Source of the DNA: Coprobacillus sp. | GTDB taxonomy: Bacteria; Bacillota_I; Bacilli_A; RFN20; CAG-826 | Length of the DNA stretch: 35,066 bases | Direction of reading: 5' to 3' | Assembly (NCBI GenBank): GCA_021203745.1 | Contig: JAJQAP010000014.1 | Location: 1-35,066 of the forward strand | Shown here: piece after piece, positions 2,111 through 34,987 of the stretch | Layout: each line of letters begins with the position of its first letter | Numbering within the stretch: the stretch's first letter is position 1 | The notes under the pieces: generated by a model | Databases searched by the model: none | The model's input: only the letters and a program-made list of their open reading frames with translations | What the model was told of the DNA's origin: nothing | Program-made: the position numbers and the translations under genes

Positions 2111-2819
2111 ATTGTTCCGCTACCTCAAGGGCTGCTTCTATCATTTTACCGAGACCTAATTGCCTTTCTTCAGGAGTGGCTTTTTTCACTTCCTTTGTAA
2201 AATGATCTGTGACTGTAAGTAGAGTTAACGCTCTTTTCTTTAATGTAATAGCGTTTAGATATAAGGCATAGGATTCCATCTCTACCCCTAAAACATTTAA
2301 ATCTTTCCATTTCTTATAGTAGTTAGGATCGGGGTCATAGAAGACATCTGCACTTAAAACACTTCCTGCGTGATATCTTAGACCTCGTTTGTCTAAAACG
2401 TCTGAAGCCGCTTTCGCAAGTTCAAAATCGGCACCAACACTGATTTGAGGAACACCATATTGATAACCCCAATTTGAATCCGTACATGCTGTCGAGGCAA
2501 GTAATACATCAAAGAGATCAATATCATCTTGATAGGCTCCACATGTTCCTACTCTAATGATAGTTTCTACCCCAAAGAAGGAATATAGTTCATGAGAATA
2601 AATACCAATTGATGGCATTCCCATCCCAGAACCCATCACACTAATTCGCTTTCCATTTTTTGTATAGCCCGTATATCCATACATTCCTCTTACTTGGTTC
2701 ACAAGTTTAGCGTCTTTTAAATAAGTCTCAGCAATCCACTTCGCTCTTAAAGGATCGCCAGGCATAATTACAACCTTTGCGAATGCATCATCTGGGGCGT
2801 CTATGTGAGGAGTTGTCAT
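2103..2819 (-). CDS. deoD: Purine-nucleoside phosphorylase (DeoD type)
   Basis: MTTPHIDAPDDAFAKVVIMPGDPLRAKWIAETYL...RGMYGYTGYTKNGKRISVMGSGMGMPSIGIYSHELY...GVEMESYALY. Upstream SD (ggaggt on minus strand). Confidence 0.93.
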   Translation of the reverse strand: MTTPHIDAPDDAFAKVVIMPGDPLRAKWIAETYLKDAKLVNQVRGMYGYTGYTKNGKRISVMGSGMGMPSIGIYSHELYSFFGVETIIRVGTCGAYQDDIDLFDVLLASTACTDSNWGYQYGVPQISVGADFELAKAASDVLDKRGLRYHAGSVLSADVFYDPDPNYYKKWKDLNVLGVEMESYALYLNAITLKKRALTLLTVTDHFTKEVKKATPEERQLGLGKMIEAALEVAEQYA

Positions 2820-2879
2820 ATTAATGTACCTCCAATATCTTAAGTTATTATATTTTAAATACTCTCTTTTTTCAATATG

Positions 2880-2897
2880 TGCTTATATATATAAGCA
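2880..2897. promoter_or_regulatory. 18-nt perfect palindrome TGCTTATATATATAAGCA in the deoD/cdaA divergent intergenic region
   Basis: The sequence is its own reverse complement over 18 nt and lies upstream of deoD (minus strand). Confidence 0.4.
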
Positions 2898-2983
2898 TAA
2901 TTTATAAAACCCTCTGCATTTTGAATTAAACAATAAAATATTGCACGTATTTTAATAAAATGACCCATTTTTAATAAAGATTA

Positions 2984-3013
2984 TTGAAGATTTATGTCCT
3001 TTTTTGCTATCAT
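2984..3013 (+). promoter_or_regulatory. Predicted promoter of cdaA (leaderless)
   Basis: TTGAAG (2984-2989), 18-nt spacer, TATCAT (3008-3013), then 6 nt, then ATG at 3020. Confidence 0.5.
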
Positions 3014-3019
3014 AAAAGT

Positions 3020-3823
3020 ATGAATTTTGCATTAAATTATCTTTGGGAAGATTCTATGACCGCATTCATTATCTCAATAGTGGTCGTTTTACTCGTTTTT
3101 GCTTTTGTTTACCTTTGTTTATACAGGGTTTGTCGTAAAACATCCGCTTTTATTACAACGAGTATTGCCCTTGTTTTGGCTCTTGCCACCTTAATTTTTG
3201 AATTATTCTATGCATTTATTGCCGTTGTCGCTGTTTTTGCGGTCTTTCTTATTGCGATTGTCTTTGCAAATATCGGCGATGTTAGATCTTTCCTTGGTAA
3301 TCCCTTTAAGAAAACAGGAACTAAACAAAGAGCGACAATTGATCGTATCTACGATAAAAATGAAGTGTTTTCTGAAGTAAATGCTGCGGTGCAGCAGATG
3401 TCTAGATCTAAAATTGGAGCGATTATTACCTTTGAAAGAAACGTCGTCTTATCAGAAAGTACAGAAAAGGGTGTTGCAGTCAACGCTCCTGTAAGTACAG
3501 AACTACTCTTAACTATCTTCTATCCTGGAACTAGACTTCATGATGGGGCGGTTATCATCCACGGAGATGAGATTCTTGCGGCCTCTTGTTTTTACACCCC
3601 AAGCACAAAATCGCTTTCTGAAAAGTATGGTTCTCGTCATAGAGCGGCTTTAGGGATTAGTGAAATCTCTGATTCTGTCACTGTAGTGGTCTCAGAAGAG
3701 ACAGGACGTATTTCTATTGCGTATAACGGAATGCTTGATACAGTGTCTCCCGATAAATTCTTAAATGTCTTCACTAACTACATGAATGATGGTGAAGAGA
3801 AACGTAAAAAGAAAGCTAATTAG
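3020..3823 (+). CDS. cdaA: Diadenylate cyclase, CdaA-like (c-di-AMP synthase)
   Basis: N-terminal TM segments followed by a DAC domain with intact HDGAVII and SRHRAALGISEISDSVTVVVSEETG motifs. The track start at TTG2984 coincides with a -35 box; ATG3020 (or 3056) is preferred. Confidence 0.9.
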   Translation: MNFALNYLWEDSMTAFIISIVVVLLVFAFVYLCLYRVCRKTSAFITTSIALVLALATLIFELFYAFIAVVAVFAVFLIAIVFANIGDVRSFLGNPFKKTGTKQRATIDRIYDKNEVFSEVNAAVQQMSRSKIGAIITFERNVVLSESTEKGVAVNAPVSTELLLTIFYPGTRLHDGAVIIHGDEILAASCFYTPSTKSLSEKYGSRHRAALGISEISDSVTVVVSEETGRISIAYNGMLDTVSPDKFLNVFTNYMNDGEEKRKKKAN

Positions 3824-3835
3824 TTAAATATAAAA

Positions 3836-3860
3836 AGAAGCACCTACATGGTGCTTTTCT
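3836..3860. terminator. Bidirectional intrinsic terminator
   Basis: AAGCACCtacatGGTGCTT flanked by A-run and T-run between convergent genes. Confidence 0.75.
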
Positions 3861-4283
3861 TTATTTCTTTACTGGTTCAATTTTAATATATTCAATTCCT
3901 ATTTCAGCGAACCCTTCTTTAAATATCTCGTCATTGACACTTTCATGAGTGTCTACAATTGAGATTAACTTATCGTATATCTTTATACCCCCATAATGGT
4001 ATAAACATACATCACTGATTCGATAGTATAGATTAATGGTGTTTCCATTATCGAGTTTATAGGTTCTTACTTGGTCAGTGGTGGGATACCACGCCTTGCG
4101 ATGGTAGACAAGAGGGGCAAAGTAGTACCATCCAGGTTCTAAGAGTTTATAAAACTCATTATACTTTTCCATGATGTATACTCTTCCTTTTCTGACGTGG
4201 TATATGCCTGAAGCAAAGACAACCGCCACAGCAACAATAACCACACCAATCGTCACAAGTAAAGCAATTAATATAACACTCAT
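3861..4283 (-). CDS. Short membrane-anchored SPFH/band-7-like N-terminal domain protein
   Basis: N-terminal TM followed by HVRKGRVYIMEKYNEFYKLLEPGWYYFAPLVYHRKAWYPTTDQVRTYKLDNGNTINLYYRISD, resembling the start of a stomatin-like SPFH domain. Only 140 aa. Confidence 0.5.
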   Translation of the reverse strand: MSVILIALLVTIGVVIVAVAVVFASGIYHVRKGRVYIMEKYNEFYKLLEPGWYYFAPLVYHRKAWYPTTDQVRTYKLDNGNTINLYYRISDVCLYHYGGIKIYDKLISIVDTHESVNDEIFKEGFAEIGIEYIKIEPVKK

Positions 4284-4337
4284 AACTCTATATTAAAACA
4301 TTTACTCTAATTTTAAAAAAGATATTAAAATATAGGT

Positions 4338-4943
4338 ATGGATTCAAAATACATTTATGACTTTGTAGTGAAAGTGCAGGCAATCTCAAAGATTGGACTT
4401 GTCCATTCTAAAGATCCCTATGCTTTATCTAATTACCAAGAGTTAAGTGATTTATCTACGCACTTTTTAGAGGACTTCCAAGAAGTCAAATTTGATCGTA
4501 ATAACTATTTTGAAAGAAATGTCTACCCCACTCCTAATGTTAGTGTGCGTACGATTATCTTTAACGAAGATAGAACTAAAGTATTAATGGTAAGAGAGGC
4601 TAACACTCATACCTATTCTTTACCTGGAGGTTGGTCAGACTTATATAATAGTCCAAGTGAAACCGCGAAAGAGGAGTGTATGCAAGAAGCGGGAGCGAGT
4701 ATTGAAATAGTAAGACTTGTCGGTGTATGCTCTCGTACCCCATTTAAGCAACCGACCTCAGTTCCTGAATACGTAGTGCTATTTGAGGCAAAACTTGTCG
4801 GAGATTTAAAAGAACATGAGTATGAAACAGATGACGTCAGTTGGTTTGATATAAATAATCTTCCTGAATCCCATAAAGTAACTAATGAAGAAATAAATCG
4901 TTTTGTGAGTGCCGCCTTTAACGGGGAAACAATTTACGATTAA
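4338..4943 (+). CDS. NUDIX hydrolase with N-terminal extension
   Basis: Nudix box-like GGWSDLYNSPSETAKEECMQEAGA in a typical context (VRTIIFNEDRTKVLMVREANTHTYSLPGGW). Confidence 0.88.
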   Translation: MDSKYIYDFVVKVQAISKIGLVHSKDPYALSNYQELSDLSTHFLEDFQEVKFDRNNYFERNVYPTPNVSVRTIIFNEDRTKVLMVREANTHTYSLPGGWSDLYNSPSETAKEECMQEAGASIEIVRLVGVCSRTPFKQPTSVPEYVVLFEAKLVGDLKEHEYETDDVSWFDINNLPESHKVTNEEINRFVSAAFNGETIYD

Positions 4944-28302: not shown

Positions 28303-28467
28303 ATGGGATTAAAAGACATTAAACTCGAAGAAAGAAGTGAAGACGAACCTAAGTTCAATCGTAAGAATAAGACCGATAGAAGGATAGTTATTATGCTCGT
28401 CTCTATTTTAGCGGTCGTTATTCTCCTTCTCGTCGCGTTTGTTTTAATCTATTACCTCGTTTTATAA
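28303..28467 (+). CDS. Small single-pass membrane protein, 54 aa (not in supplied ORF track)
   Basis: ATG28303 with SD aaagga: MGLKDIKLEERSEDEPKFNRKNKTDRRIVIMLVSILAVVILLLVAFVLIYYLVL, stop 28465-28467. The next gene starts at 28468 with no gap. Confidence 0.75.
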   Translation: MGLKDIKLEERSEDEPKFNRKNKTDRRIVIMLVSILAVVILLLVAFVLIYYLVL

Positions 28468-29664
28468 ATGGCAAAAAAGAGAAAGAGTCTAGAAGGGATA
28501 CTGATTGATCCACGTCTTCCTGGAGATAAGCATTTACGGGTCGCCTATTTTTTAGGCTGTGGAATATGTGATAATCTTATCACCTTCGGAAAACAGTTAC
28601 CCGTATTAGAGGGAGAAGTTATCTTTGAAGATGAAGATATAGAAGCCCTTAGTTATTTAATAAACCGTGAAATCGATAGTGGACAAGACAGTGATTATAT
28701 CCTTCTCTTTGATGTTGATCTCTCTTTATCTAACTATAAACTCATTACAAAGAACTTCCCTTACCCAGTCGCGGATATCTCGATCCTTTTATATAACTAT
28801 TTGATGTCCACAAAGAAAAACGATGCTTATTCTCTTTTACTCATGAAGTTTTATGACATCCTTGAAGAAAGGGATAGACTAAGACATCTAAAAAGAATCC
28901 CACAAAAAGAGTTGAAAGTGGATTTTGAACAGTCGAGTGACGTTAATGACCAGATTAAAGAAGTCTTTTCAAAAAGAGAGAAGAAGTTTCAAAAAGCCCT
29001 CGATAGTGGTTTACCCATAATATCTGTTTTAGGCGCAGGTGCGACTTCTAAGCATATAGTCTCCTATCTATTAACACACTTTGAGTTCCCGTTAGAAGAG
29101 ACGTATTTCCGTCATGAGTTTGATTCTAGGCTCTCTTTAATTAATAACTACCAGTACCCTTCTTTTTATCTTCATAACGCTCTTCCGTTTACCACTAACG
29201 AATGTAAATACTACGACCAGTGCTTTGCGCCAATGTATGAGGAAATGGGTTATGCCTCTCTTTATATCGTTGTCGTTGATGCCTTCCAAGAAGACTATGA
29301 TGAAAGACTAAAAAAGTACGATAATTACATCAAATCGATTGCAAAAAGGAAAGATTATAAGATAATTCATCTTTTAGATGAAGATGAGTTTGCCCCTTCC
29401 CAACTTTCTCGTCTTCCTCGTGTTAATGAATATATTACCGATATAGGAGATTCTCTAGATAAGGAAGAAGTGCTCTCTTTTATCTTTGAGAGTATCTATG
29501 AAGATTGGAAAGAAGTAACCCTTTTATTACCATACGAAATTGATATTAACGCCTTTCGAAAAGAAAACTATGTTAAGAGTGTTGAAGAAACAAAAAACGG
29601 CCATCTCATAACCTGCCGTCTTAACCCATTAAATCAGGATAAATATAAAGATTATTTACTCTAA
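28468..29664 (+). CDS. HflX-like protein with degenerate (putatively non-functional) GTPase domain
   Basis: N-terminal HflX-like region (LLFDVDLSLSNYKLITKNFPYPVADISILLYNYL...LLLMKFYDILEERDRLRHLKR), HflX-like C-terminal domain (VTLLLPYEIDINAFRKENYVKSVEETKNGHLITCRLNPLNQDKYKDYL), G-domain-like middle with altered G1/G3/G4 motifs. Confidence 0.6.
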   Translation: MAKKRKSLEGILIDPRLPGDKHLRVAYFLGCGICDNLITFGKQLPVLEGEVIFEDEDIEALSYLINREIDSGQDSDYILLFDVDLSLSNYKLITKNFPYPVADISILLYNYLMSTKKNDAYSLLLMKFYDILEERDRLRHLKRIPQKELKVDFEQSSDVNDQIKEVFSKREKKFQKALDSGLPIISVLGAGATSKHIVSYLLTHFEFPLEETYFRHEFDSRLSLINNYQYPSFYLHNALPFTTNECKYYDQCFAPMYEEMGYASLYIVVVDAFQEDYDERLKKYDNYIKSIAKRKDYKIIHLLDEDEFAPSQLSRLPRVNEYITDIGDSLDKEEVLSFIFESIYEDWKEVTLLLPYEIDINAFRKENYVKSVEETKNGHLITCRLNPLNQDKYKDYLL

Positions 29665-30210
29665 ACTTAAGCCTCGTCGTTTGAGCTCTGCAACATACTC
29701 AGTATAAATTTGGTATGTGACCTGTTCGACGTTTTGAGTTTGAGAATTAACCACAAAATCGACTGTGGCAATTTGAGTAGGATCAAAAGCGGTTCTATCG
29801 TGGATGATCCTCTTTTTTGCGTCTTCGTTATTATCTCCTCTTATCATCATTCTTTCAAATCGTGTGGCTTCATCCGTTTGAAGAAAAAAGGTGATTATTG
29901 AAGGATCATTTAAGGCGATATAACTTCTTAAGCCTTTTGGATCAATAACCACACATTTATTTAATGAGATTCCTGATTTTGTACTTCCGTAGTAGTTATC
30001 GTTAAAGACGGTATACTCGACGAATTCATCATTAGATATCATCTGGTCAAACATCTCTCTAGTCACAAAGAAATAATCCACGCCATCGATTTCACCCACT
30101 CTCTTAGGTCTTGTCGTCGTGGTTATTACTTTTGTAATTCCATACTTAGAAGCAAGTAGTTTTGCTACTTCTGTTTTACCACTTGCACTTGCGCCTGCTA
30201 GAACAACCAT
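29656..30210 (-). CDS. gmk: Guanylate kinase
   Basis: VVLAGASASGKTEVAKLLASKYGITKVITTTTRPKRVGEIDGVDYFFVTREMFDQMISNDEFVEYTVFNDNYYGSTKSGI. Convergent with the upstream gene, 9-nt overlap. Confidence 0.85.
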   Translation of the reverse strand: MVVLAGASASGKTEVAKLLASKYGITKVITTTTRPKRVGEIDGVDYFFVTREMFDQMISNDEFVEYTVFNDNYYGSTKSGISLNKCVVIDPKGLRSYIALNDPSIITFFLQTDEATRFERMMIRGDNNEDAKKRIIHDRTAFDPTQIATVDFVVNSQTQNVEQVTYQIYTEYVAELKRRGLSLE

Positions 30211-30333: not shown

Positions 30334-30657
30334 ATGATTAAAAAAAATCACACACAACTAACTAGTGATGTAAAAGAAATTGCCACTCTCTATTTCTATT
30401 ATCAGTATAAGTTAAAGCACTCTCATGGACTTGGATCCACCAACTATGAAGAGTATCAGCAGACAGTGGATCGTATCGATTTAGCTTTCTCCTATTTAGA
30501 GGAGGATGAAAAAGACATCATTAATAACGAATTCTTTTATCAATCCTCACCAGATTGGTGGGAACTTACTTACTCAAAAGCGGAGTTTAATCGTAAAAAG
30601 GATTTAGCGATGAGTAAGTTTATTAACTATTTTGTTTCAGGAGGTATGGCATGTTAA
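30334..30657 (+). CDS. Small sigma-70 region 4 / ArpU-like putative regulator heading the Tad-like operon
   Basis: 107 aa. LAFSYLEEDEKDIINNEFFYQSSPDWWELTYSKAEFNRKKDLAMSKFINYF resembles sigma-region-4-like HTH proteins. SD aggagg. Confidence 0.45.
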   Translation: MIKKNHTQLTSDVKEIATLYFYYQYKLKHSHGLGSTNYEEYQQTVDRIDLAFSYLEEDEKDIINNEFFYQSSPDWWELTYSKAEFNRKKDLAMSKFINYFVSGGMAC

Positions 30658-31829
30658 AACAAGTACTTGAAACTGCGCTTATTATTGTCTTAGCGGATTC
30701 TGCTTTTAGCCCTGATCTTCCAGGTATCGACGGTTCTTTACCCACGATTACTGATTATAACTTTTCTATGGAGGTCGCCGCGGAGACCGATTTTGGAACG
30801 TATGACTACGACTTTGATAAAACCGAGTTTACTCTCCCTATCAGTATAGGCTCAGGATATAACGACTGGACCTTTACATGCACCGCTGGAGTGTACGCCC
30901 CAAAAGATGACGGAACATATGATACTTATCCCGATAATGGAGACATGGGTACATATACTTTCACTGTTGGCAAGGATGGTAATGAAATTATGCATGGGAA
31001 AACCGAAACCTATGAGGCAAAATTTACTGTCGGTTTCTTTAAAAACAAAGATTATGAGAGAGAAATTTGGGAACACCTTTATCTCGTCTTTTTTATCGAT
31101 GGAACCGCTCCAAGCGACAAAGTAATTCCTGATGATACTCCAACATCATATACCTTCTATTCCGAGTTTATACTAAGAGGATTTGGAAAGTATAAAGTTA
31201 AAGCGGGCACTAAAGAATTCTATCCAATCGATGACCATATTGTTTTTGGAGGCACTAGAGAAAATGGTAATGTCACCGAAACAGTGGACTTTTCAAGCAC
31301 AAAAGATGCGATATGTGAAGAAAAGTATCTCAGCATAAACGATTCATTTGATATTGCCTACACCGCAACAGATAGAGAATATTCGGCTAGTCCTAACATA
31401 ATCGATGCTTGGATTTATGTCGTTGATCCTAATAACTACTTTGAGTATATGCATTCAGCTTCTGTCGATAACTTTGCTATCTCTCTAGATCACGAAAAGA
31501 AAAACTCTAATGATTATATAGATAAAGATGGAAATACCGTGCAAGTTACTGGTTCTTTCTGGGTCGGGGGAGAAACATATTGGGTTGACCCAAGTACCCT
31601 AACTATGTCTTTAAAACAGGAGACTCGTTTTTACGAGGAAACCACTAATTTCTACTTTAAAGTGGGATATTACGACTTAATTAAAGAAAACTGTGAGTTT
31701 TATTTTGTGGCAAAAGACGTCGGATACAATGAAGCCACTTACATCATACCGCTCAATTTCCTTGGTGATCATGATTACTATGGATCTTGCCTAGATAGCG
31801 ATTACTGCATGCACTACGGGAGAGGCTAA
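30651..31829 (+). CDS. Uncharacterised beta-rich protein of the Tad-like operon
   Basis: 392 aa, overlaps the upstream stop by 7 nt. Acidic, aromatic, beta-rich composition, short hydrophobic N-terminus (LETALIIVLADSAF). Confidence 0.65.
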   Translation: MLKQVLETALIIVLADSAFSPDLPGIDGSLPTITDYNFSMEVAAETDFGTYDYDFDKTEFTLPISIGSGYNDWTFTCTAGVYAPKDDGTYDTYPDNGDMGTYTFTVGKDGNEIMHGKTETYEAKFTVGFFKNKDYEREIWEHLYLVFFIDGTAPSDKVIPDDTPTSYTFYSEFILRGFGKYKVKAGTKEFYPIDDHIVFGGTRENGNVTETVDFSSTKDAICEEKYLSINDSFDIAYTATDREYSASPNIIDAWIYVVDPNNYFEYMHSASVDNFAISLDHEKKNSNDYIDKDGNTVQVTGSFWVGGETYWVDPSTLTMSLKQETRFYEETTNFYFKVGYYDLIKENCEFYFVAKDVGYNEATYIIPLNFLGDHDYYGSCLDSDYCMHYGRG

Positions 31830-31831
31830 AA

Positions 31832-32206
31832 ATGGCAAATATGTTTCTCTGCATCATGTTCGCTTGTATGTTTGCGCAGTATTTCTATATCAATTTAAAT
31901 GTGCAAATACTCAACAATGCTGTAGAGAATCTCCCTGTTGCACTTGTTTCTTCCTGTGTGGATCTTAGGTTTGATTACCCATTTTTTGATCAAACGAAAT
32001 TAGAAGAGTGTGTGGGTGAATACTATGATTACTCATTAAAGGTGGTCCATGAGGTTTCTTATAGTTATTACACAAGGACAGGAGAAATTGACCTTCCTGA
32101 TGAAAATATGGCAATGGGGGTAGATATTACCTTAACGAGTAGTTTCTCAACATTCTATACATATTCAAAGACAATGTTTTATGAAATCGTAGAGGGCTTA
32201 GCATGA
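31832..32206 (+). CDS. Small TadE/pseudopilin-like protein
   Basis: 124 aa. N-terminal hydrophobic helix (MFLCIMFACMFAQYFYINLNVQILNNAVENL) plus a short extracytoplasmic part. Next start overlaps (ATGA). Confidence 0.45.
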   Translation: MANMFLCIMFACMFAQYFYINLNVQILNNAVENLPVALVSSCVDLRFDYPFFDQTKLEECVGEYYDYSLKVVHEVSYSYYTRTGEIDLPDENMAMGVDITLTSSFSTFYTYSKTMFYEIVEGLA

Positions 32207-33267
32207 CGGATAATAAAGCGCTTGGTTATATTGAAGGTTCTTTCTTAAGGCCGATATTAAATCTAAAAGGAGTGACGGATATCTCCTTTAACGGCCACGA
32301 ACTCTTCTATATGGATAATAACAGTGGAAGGATAAAATCGGATATCCAACTTACAAGCGATGAGGCTACAGACTTTATAAGACAAATTGCTAATTTATCG
32401 AAACAGCAATTCTCTTATTCAGAACCAATTCTCGATGTCACTGTGGATCTATATAGAATAAGTGCGATTCATCATTCAATTGCCCTCTACGATGGAGAGG
32501 AGGTGACGACCTTCTCAATAAGAATCGCCAGAAAGAACCTTCAAATTGATGATAGTAGTGATTTCTTTACTAAACCTTGTCGTGATTTAATACTACACGC
32601 GCTAGAAAAGAAAATCCCTATTGTTATAGGAGGAGAAACATCATCAGGAAAAACAGAACTGCAAAAGTATCTTCTCTCTAACCTTAAACAAAGCGATAGG
32701 GCAATAGTCATTGATCAAGTGGCAGAACTAGACTACTGCCACGAATACACAAGGTGCGATCTTACCATTTGGCGGTCTAACCAAGAGAGAAAGAAGGTAA
32801 CAACAGATTACCTATTAAGTGTCTCCTTAAGAAATAATCCTGACTGGATAATTGTCGCGGAGACTCGAGGGGAAGAAGTAATCAATATCATCAATTCAGT
32901 AATGACAGGACACTCAATTATTACGACAATACACGCAACAGATGCCTACTCAATTCCAGAAAAGATTGCTCTTATGTCGATGATGAGTGATAGGAAACTA
33001 GATTATGAGAGTGTCCTAAAAGATGTCTATTACCACCTACCCCTATATGTATATGTCCAAAGGGATTTTGAAGGGGGAAGAATTAAAAGATATATCAGCT
33101 CAATAATGTACGTATTACCAAATGGGGAAAAGTACTTACTCTATGATAAAGAAAGGAACAGTCCATATCTAAAAATGAATCAAAATAATCAACTTTTAAA
33201 AGATATTACACCAAAAGACATTCATATTTACGATGCTTTTGTGGAGGAAAATCATGAAAAAAAATAA
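32203..33267 (+). CDS. CpaF/TadA-type secretion ATPase
   Basis: IPIVIGGETSSGKTELQKYLLSNL Walker A; LRNNPDWIIVAETRGEEVINIINSVMTGHSIITTIHATDAYSIPEKIALM Walker B/His box. Confidence 0.88.
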   Translation: MTDNKALGYIEGSFLRPILNLKGVTDISFNGHELFYMDNNSGRIKSDIQLTSDEATDFIRQIANLSKQQFSYSEPILDVTVDLYRISAIHHSIALYDGEEVTTFSIRIARKNLQIDDSSDFFTKPCRDLILHALEKKIPIVIGGETSSGKTELQKYLLSNLKQSDRAIVIDQVAELDYCHEYTRCDLTIWRSNQERKKVTTDYLLSVSLRNNPDWIIVAETRGEEVINIINSVMTGHSIITTIHATDAYSIPEKIALMSMMSDRKLDYESVLKDVYYHLPLYVYVQRDFEGGRIKRYISSIMYVLPNGEKYLLYDKERNSPYLKMNQNNQLLKDITPKDIHIYDAFVEENHEKK

Positions 33268-33967
33268 AAATAATAATTATGTTACATACATTTTAGTTTC
33301 TCTTCTTATTGGAATTTTATTCTATCTTTCTACCTCAATGCTTCTTGTCTCTTTAGCGGTCTTTCTAGTCTTCTTTCTTTATCTTATTCTTCGTGTGGAA
33401 CGAGTCTACAAGAAGACTCAAAAGAGAAATCAGAGAGTGGACTTTGCTTATAATCTCATCAATAACACTATTTCTTCAATCAGTGTCTATGGAAATATCA
33501 ATGAAGCAGTGGATCACGCCCTAACTACTTATGATATTTCGAAAATTAAAGAGATAGGAAATATCTCAAATATGGAAGGGCTAGATAAACTTCAATATCT
33601 ATCATCTTACTTCTCCCTTCCAATCTATGATGCATTCTTAAACATCCTTGAACTATATCAAGAAAATGGTGGAAACATCCTCGATATGAGTGAGCATCTT
33701 CTTTCAGAAACAAGACAGATTCAAAACAATCTCTTATCCACGAATACCCTTTATAGGAGTAAAGCCACAAACGTGGTGATGCTTTGGATCTTTGCCCTTA
33801 TCGTTCCTGTTTTTATCCGTTTTGCCCTTGTGGATTTCTATTCATCATTGATTAGTTCCGCAATATATGTCGCAGGCATTGTATTGACCTATGCCCTTGC
33901 CCTTATCACCATTGAAATATTCTGTAACAAATTTTCAAATCAGAGAGTTAAAGGAGTGGATTTATGA
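33254..33967 (+). CDS. TadB-like inner-membrane platform protein (T2SF domain)
   Basis: N-terminal TM pair; ELYQENGGNILDMSEHLLSETRQIQNN; C-terminal TM segments. ATG33254 with SD ggagg preferred over the track start 33233. Confidence 0.7.
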   Translation: MKKNKNNNYVTYILVSLLIGILFYLSTSMLLVSLAVFLVFFLYLILRVERVYKKTQKRNQRVDFAYNLINNTISSISVYGNINEAVDHALTTYDISKIKEIGNISNMEGLDKLQYLSSYFSLPIYDAFLNILELYQENGGNILDMSEHLLSETRQIQNNLLSTNTLYRSKATNVVMLWIFALIVPVFIRFALVDFYSSLISSAIYVAGIVLTYALALITIEIFCNKFSNQRVKGVDL

Positions 33968-34647
33968 GTAAAAAGGAAAAGAAAGAGAAAAATACTACCG
34001 AAACAAAATCTAGGTCTTCCTCAAGTAAAAATACCATTTTAATCCTTGTTTGTAATATCGCCGTCATCCTTGTAGGAGCGCTCCTCGTATATTTCTATTT
34101 CTCATACATGATTATTGTAATTTTCGTTGTTGTTCTCCTTTTGATGGACTATTACTTCTACTCCCAACGCATTAATAAGAAGAAGAGGGAGCAGGAGCAA
34201 AGGGAAGAAGAGTTTATCTCACTCATTACATATTTTAAAATCTACCTCACTAATGGAATCAATGTTTATCAGTCATTACAGCTTGCCTCTTCATTCCTCT
34301 CGGAATGGATGAAAGAACAAGTTGACCAGCTCCTACAAGAAATTGATAACGATAAAACAATAAACCCATACTTAAACTTTGCTTCCCTTTTTAGTCTTCA
34401 TCATTATGAGGATGTAATGACCGCAATATATCAGCTCGTGGATCAAGGAGGTGACCCAGCTTATATGAACAAGTTTGTTTATACCTTTGAAAAGATAGAA
34501 GAAGAAGATAACAAATATCGTCACGATAAAGACGAAAGAGGCATGAATATTGTCAGTGCCCTCCCAATTGTTGGATGTTGTCTATTTACCATCTGTCTTA
34601 CCTTTGGAATTATATCGATGTTAGGAGATTTCATGGATGTCCTCTAG
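33964..34647 (+). CDS. TadC-like platform protein (T2SF-like)
   Basis: KRE-rich loop after two TM; LITYFKIYLTNGINVYQSLQLASSF...YQLVDQGGDPAYMNKFVYTFEKIEEEDNKYRHDKDERGMNIVSALPIVGCCLFTICLTFGI. ATGA overlap. Confidence 0.65.
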   Translation: MSKKEKKEKNTTETKSRSSSSKNTILILVCNIAVILVGALLVYFYFSYMIIVIFVVVLLLMDYYFYSQRINKKKREQEQREEEFISLITYFKIYLTNGINVYQSLQLASSFLSEWMKEQVDQLLQEIDNDKTINPYLNFASLFSLHHYEDVMTAIYQLVDQGGDPAYMNKFVYTFEKIEEEDNKYRHDKDERGMNIVSALPIVGCCLFTICLTFGIISMLGDFMDVL

Positions 34648-34987
34648 TCTTGGTTTAATCATCTCGATGCTATTTGTCGCTATCACCTTCATGTTTGGAG
34701 GAGACCTCCTCACCCTCCAAGCCGCTTTTACTAGTCTAGAAAACGCCGCAAATGACATTGCTTACTTTGTCGCATACTATTTCGATTTCTCTGATGAATT
34801 TGTCGCTTATCTCGAAGAAATGTATACCGTCAAAATAACAAGTGACACTGGCATATATGGTGGTGCCTATGGCGATATGGTTGATTTCTATGTCACCAAA
34901 ACAGTGGACCACTTATTCATCATGGGTACAGAGTATACCCTAACAGTAGAAAGGACAGCGATTCTAGGTTCTTATGGTTTGTTTTAA
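34637..34987 (+). CDS. Small pilin/TadE-like protein
   Basis: 116 aa. N-terminal hydrophobic helix (LGLIISMLFVAITFMFGGDLLTLQAAFTSLENAANDIAYFVAYYF), tail RTAILGSYGLF. Confidence 0.45.
   Translation: MSSSLGLIISMLFVAITFMFGGDLLTLQAAFTSLENAANDIAYFVAYYFDFSDEFVAYLEEMYTVKITSDTGIYGGAYGDMVDFYVTKTVDHLFIMGTEYTLTVERTAILGSYGLF

Follow-up and report, generated by a model that had tools for sequence, protein, structure and literature searches.

HflX is a very widespread bacterial ribosome-splitting GTPase, and GTPBP6 is its mitochondrial homologue. Pseudo-GTPases are best known from eukaryotes. On the ribosome, a loop of the helical domain (HD) of HflX or GTPBP6 enters the PTC and ND1 displaces H69 (PMC12493154, PMC8209004, PMC9067457). 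The C-terminal domain (CTD) of GTPBP6 lies between the SRL and uL11m (PMC8209004), and that of Mycobacterium smegmatis HflX contacts the stalk base (PMC12493154). The loss of HflX from reduced genomes has been documented, Acholeplasma laidlawii being the only member of the Mollicutes in which it was found (PMC4014445). The eukaryotic pseudoGTPases pG1 and pG2 of p190RhoGAP and CENP-M have the small-GTPase fold without the nucleotide motifs and are kept as binding modules (PMC10211241, PMC5593906). In the open-access papers searched for bacterial pseudoGTPases and HflX variants, no pseudo-HflX was found, nor was any pseudo-GTPase found described for a bacterial ribosome GTPase.

The window, a 35,066-nucleotide stretch of DNA, comes from a genus of uncultured small-genome bacteria (here the window genus) and encodes a protein that is almost certainly an HflX-derived pseudo-GTPase (Table 1). 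This protein is similar to HflX (TIGR03156; PDB entries 5ADY and 8UU9) in the domain order ND1-HD-G-CTD, fold, locus, length, and CTD sequence but differs from it in lacking G1 to G4, the PTC loop, and the ND1 motif. As in HflXr and mycobacterial HflX, the variation is concentrated in the N-terminal half and the HD loop (PMC12493154); however, both of those keep the GTPase domain, their HD loops are longer rather than missing, and HflXr of Listeria, unlike the window protein, coexists with a normal HflX copy. With p190RhoGAP pG1/pG2 and CENP-M, it shares a GTPase fold devoid of nucleotide motifs; those proteins belong to other, eukaryotic GTPase families, whereas the window protein comes from a translation-associated bacterial GTPase and has canonical orthologues in sister genera.

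Table 1. Features of the pseudo-hflX locus, with positions in the window
Feature	Positions	Strand	Description	Basis
Pseudo-hflX gene	28468..29664	+	398 aa; hflX orthologue at the ancestral locus	ORF, congeners, motifs, fold, tree, locus
Eroded ND1 domain	28468..28767	+	Residues 1-100; YxGxGKxxEI replaced by IFEDEDIEAL	Alignment with canonical HflX
Eroded helical domain	28768..29001	+	Residues 101-178; glycine-rich PTC loop GxGxxNKGxGE missing, also in the three congeners	
Former G1/P-loop	29032..29058	+	GYTNAGKST replaced by GAGATSKHI	Alignment
Former G3	29173..29190	+	TDTVGF replaced by HNALPF	Alignment
Former G4	29371..29391	+	LYNKYDL replaced by LLDEDEF	Alignment
Conserved C-terminal domain	29503..29661	+	Residues 346-398; 33/53 identical to canonical L005	Alignment, branch lengths
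Small single-TM protein gene	28303..28467	+	54 aa; conserved neighbour whose stop codon directly adjoins the ATG of pseudo-hflX	
Guanylate-kinase-like gene	29656..30210	-	GASASGKT; convergent, overlapping the 3' end of pseudo-hflX; landmark of the ancestral hflX slot	

The reading frame is uninterrupted, as the initial annotation had it. Taken alone, the window protein matched no Pfam family at cut-off, retrieved no convincing chain in a sequence search of the PDB, and gave no match when used as the query against the genome contigs. Its sole match in the NCBIfam scan was TIGR03156 (HflX), with an E value of 0.014 and 14.3 bits against the curated equivalog cut-off of 216.75 bits; the match is colinear, with residues 157 to 306 aligned to profile positions 164 to 312. 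Such single-sequence scans are marginal, so the HflX assignment of the initial annotation could not be decided from one sequence. All three congeners examined carry an orthologue at the same locus that is 26 to 33% identical to the window protein and is followed, as in the window, by the convergent guanylate-kinase-like gene; the database records carrying these forms are the metagenome assemblies “Coprobacillus sp.” BH.B1_1, BH.B1_4, and BH.B1_5. The congener proteins pass Pfam MMR_HSR1 and score 67.7, 56.5, and 73.6 bits with TIGR03156, likewise below the equivalog cut-off (the canonical protein L005 scores 326 bits). Elsewhere in the family, this slot is either occupied by a canonical HflX, mostly scoring above 300 bits, or devoid of hflX. 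The four proteins of the window genus form one clade with a support of 100/100 on a long stem (2.0, compared to 2.4 for the window branch and 0.29 for the median end branch) whose position among the genera is not fixed by the tree.

Structure prediction agrees with this assignment. The AlphaFold2 alignment consisted of the four genus members only, with no canonical HflX row, and the window model has a mean pLDDT of 52.7, with good confidence toward the C terminus but poor confidence in residues 1 to 157; the model of the congener L061 is better (68.9). In Foldseek searches against the PDB, the best 14 matches of the window model are HflX, HflXr, or GTPBP6 (E values from 3e-11 to 9e-5), and so are the best 15 matches of the L061 model (E values from 4e-21). 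The ND1-HD-G-CTD fold is thus recovered, with ND1 of the window model at low confidence. The colinear profile match, the orthologues that bridge to clear HflX, and the fold search place the HflX likeness beyond chance, and the proposed descent is backed by the shared locus of the sister genera and by the single clade with intermediate congeners.

The window genome (G000, 81% complete), where the next-best match is a 294-residue Era-like GTPase scoring 48 bits, yielded no second hflX, and neither did the 96%-complete genome of the congener G003. The separate canonical hflX that the initial annotation proposed looking for is therefore missing from both assemblies; a second copy could have escaped the less complete one, but the more complete one is also without it. 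A paralogue residing beside a normal hflX was accordingly rejected, the gene being the hflX locus itself, and its interpretation as the genome's own hflX, eroded in place, is well supported.

The motifs of the four window-genus proteins were compared with 36 canonical HflX rows (one gene is represented twice), and the resulting picture of a staged erosion in two layers is well supported. Common to all four proteins is the loss of the G3 Asp (present in 36 of 36 canonical rows and replaced by Asn in each of the four), the ND1 GxG motif, the glycine-rich helical-domain loop, and the switch I context, all at positions that are invariant or nearly so in the canonical rows. Lost in the window protein only are Gly194 of G1, Thr217 of G2, the glycine of G3, and Lys305 and Asp307 of G4, and it is the only one of the four in which G1, G2, G3, and G4 are all lost together. 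In the alignment with same-family canonical HflX, VGYTNAGKSTL (G1), LTDTVGFI (G3), and LYNKYDLL (G4) correspond to LGAGATSK-HI, LHNALPFT, and LLDEDEFA, respectively, exactly at the sites named in the initial annotation, and the FATLETSTR of G2 is gone as well. The three congeners retain GYP[DSN][SA]GKST at G1 and NKAD or SKSD at G4. Orthologues with the same lost motifs, which the initial annotation had proposed to look for, were thus found with respect to the G3 Asp but not to G1 and G4, and the converse finding, GxxxxGK[ST] and NKxD retained in orthologues, which had been named as an argument against the pseudo-GTPase, applies to those two motifs only. Because the congeners that keep G1 and G4 are themselves devoid of the G3 Asp, this pattern indicates ongoing erosion and does not refute the pseudo-GTPase reading. 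A local frameshift hiding the P-loop was considered and rejected, as no GKS/T is encoded in either other frame around the motif sites, and the alternative frames of the gene restore no nucleotide motifs.

Between the window gene and its congeners, dN is 0.80 to 0.91 with synonymous sites saturated, so that dN/dS is only bounded; in the same comparisons, gltX and the guanylate-kinase-like gene have dN values of 0.20 to 0.28. All four frames have stayed open across this saturated synonymous distance, which argues for protein-level selection, and the window protein thus combines a G-domain fold and missing nucleotide motifs with an intact, selected frame, as expected of a pseudo-GTPase. The constraint has shifted to the CTD. 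Per-domain maximum-likelihood branch lengths on a fixed tree are 4.8 for the HD, 3.6 for the G1-G3 region, and 0.32 for the CTD on the window end branch and 4.1 for the HD and 0.22 for the CTD on the genus stem, and the CTD evolves more slowly in this genus than in canonical HflX. Identity to L005, the nearest canonical protein, is 62% in the CTD versus 18% (61 of 338 residues) elsewhere (Fisher p, 1e-10), compared with 23 of 52 versus 205 of 365 in the canonical pair L010-L005. The HflX parallel drawn initially for the C terminus is borne out by this alignment; the one drawn for the N terminus holds in a weak sense, with ND1 7% identical to L005 and the likeness resting on the congeners and the fold. 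The window CTD is nearer to g17 HflX than the CTDs of the congeners are, and third codon positions of the window gene and L005 are somewhat more alike in the CTD (0.57) than elsewhere (0.33); the 3' end may therefore have undergone gene conversion in the past.

TIGR03156 matches over the cut-off were found in 33 of the 195 family genomes and in 205 of the 395 genomes across the class. The repeated deletion of hflX in the family, combined with the retention of the eroded gene in all four species of the window genus, suggests that the gene is in use, and a retained function is probable, although the window species alone may have lost it recently.

The explanation that we favor, with moderate confidence as a whole, is a staged vertical conversion of the hflX of this genus into a pseudo-GTPase that docks through its CTD. 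The gene would have been inherited vertically and converted in two steps. In the ancestor of the genus, the G3 Asp, the ND1 GxG motif, and the glycine-rich PTC loop would have been lost, leaving GTP binding still possible but probably abolishing normal switching or ribosome splitting. In the window lineage, the subsequent loss of the P-loop, switch I, and NKxD would have ended GTP binding. Selection would since have kept the CTD on a degenerate G-domain scaffold, and the product may act as a nucleotide-independent adaptor whose CTD docks at the stalk base of the 50S subunit, on the SRL/uL11 side. Ribosome association without hydrolysis, as the initial annotation suggested, would probably not take the usual HflX pose, because the PTC loop and ND1 are eroded too. 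With these elements and the GTP switch gone and the CTD kept, a nucleotide-independent module docking at the stalk base is the most economical proposal, and such docking is the likeliest residual ribosome contact. Ribosome docking through the CTD, as the domain-wise constraint would have it, is in itself a credible possibility, although far from an assured one. A docked pseudo-HflX could serve as a passive anti-association, protection, or assembly factor.

The opposite interpretation, that hflX lost its use in the ancestor of the genus and is now on its way to the deletion seen in most relatives, draws on the absence of the gene from most of the family, the long window branch, and the state of the slot at the 14 loci examined. 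In 12 inspected genomes, the small TM gene or an SDR gene directly abuts the kinase-like gene and hflX is cleanly absent, and in two further genomes (G006 and G037), an ABC-F-type ATPase occupies the slot. However, the frames are open in four species at saturated synonymous distance, the CTD evolves more slowly than in canonical HflX, and shared residues are kept at specific sites (YP.FYL, P+.NE, and LPYE). Neutral decay would not spare a single domain, and a dying gene appears quite unlikely. A repurposing away from the ribosome, as a membrane-tethered scaffold acting with the upstream small one-TM protein, is likewise unlikely but deserves some consideration. In all four species, the end of the small ORF lies close to the start of pseudo-hflX, from a 14-bp overlap to a 5-bp gap, its product is better conserved across the genus (44 to 52%) than pseudo-HflX (26 to 32%), and the gene pair has stayed together in the window although the gene upstream of it was rearranged. 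On the other hand, matches to the small protein at E values of ≤0.01 (weak ones included) extend over 23 genera of the family, often in genomes without hflX, and its gene adjoins a canonical hflX in G010. It was therefore demoted from a partner specific to the window genus to an ancestral neighbor of hflX, which it is at the least; a partner role may exist.

Persistence of nucleotide binding, through relocated or unconventional residues or as ATP binding by the N-terminal domain, would be in line with the retention of G1 and NKAD/SKSD in the congeners and with a lysine (Lys195) at the P-loop position of the window protein, but the latter retains none of GKS/T, the switch I Thr, DxxG, and NKxD and has lost the ND1 GxG motif as well, which makes this very improbable. 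Hardly credible is the remaining alternative, convergence on a Rossmann-like fold without any HflX descent: the marginal direct profile scores (none in Pfam) would fit it, but the synteny, the intermediate congeners, their monophyly with the window protein, and the uniform identity of its best 14 fold matches all speak for descent.

Under the favored staged conversion, canonical, half-eroded, and fully eroded HflX at one locus in one family make up a natural series, which allows one to ask what role HflX has without GTP, without the PTC loop, or without both and bears on which part of HflX, here the CTD, is able to sustain a function by itself. A second eroded HflX-like protein, L100, is encoded in another family of the order (G238, contig C67, complement of positions 583 to 1752). 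Like the window protein, it has lost the PTC loop and the G3 Gly (DSAPL) and has an eroded ND1; unlike the window protein, it belongs to a separate lineage, has intact G1 (GHLNTGKST) and G4 (NKID), and scores 67.9 bits with TIGR03156. This suggests that HflX erosion began more than once. An extended scenario, in which a nucleotide-free scaffold preserving only the contact of the CTD with the 50S stalk base arose stepwise within one genus, the four species represent intermediates (G3 lost first and the P-loop still present, then every motif lost), and the second family has independently reached the first step, is only tentatively proposed. Other low TIGR03156 matches in the class (G299, G560, and G338) were not accepted as eroded HflX and were judged Era/EngA-like by length and profile span only; the low match in G366 is a 144-residue fragment.

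In the family, the gene order is a CNNM-type or repeat protein gene, the small one-TM protein gene, in some cases an SDR dehydrogenase gene, and hflX where present, followed by the convergent guanylate-kinase-like gene, the gene for a 107-residue protein, a surface protein gene, and Tad/T2SS-like genes. The small TM protein (LEERSEDEPKFN..NKTDRR, followed by the TM helix) has no above-cut-off match in Pfam or NCBIfam. The ABC-F-type genes of G006 and G037 lie between the SDR and kinase-like genes (L159, positions 2501 to 4096; L160, positions 3287 to 4885), and the possibility that these 1.6-kb slots hold a hyper-eroded HflX was rejected on the basis of their ABC-F-type identity; G026 has a gene of the ABC-F type ahead of its hflX. 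The guanylate-kinase-like protein, which is tightly linked to the hflX slot, scores 90 bits against an NCBIfam guanylate kinase cut-off of 160. Beyond its gene, the window carries a conserved block (positions 30334 to 34987) that encodes the 107-residue protein, a fast-evolving surface-type protein, a T2SSE/TadA-like ATPase (positions 32203 to 33267), and further membrane proteins; it has the appearance of a minimal Tad/T2SS-like system belonging to this family.
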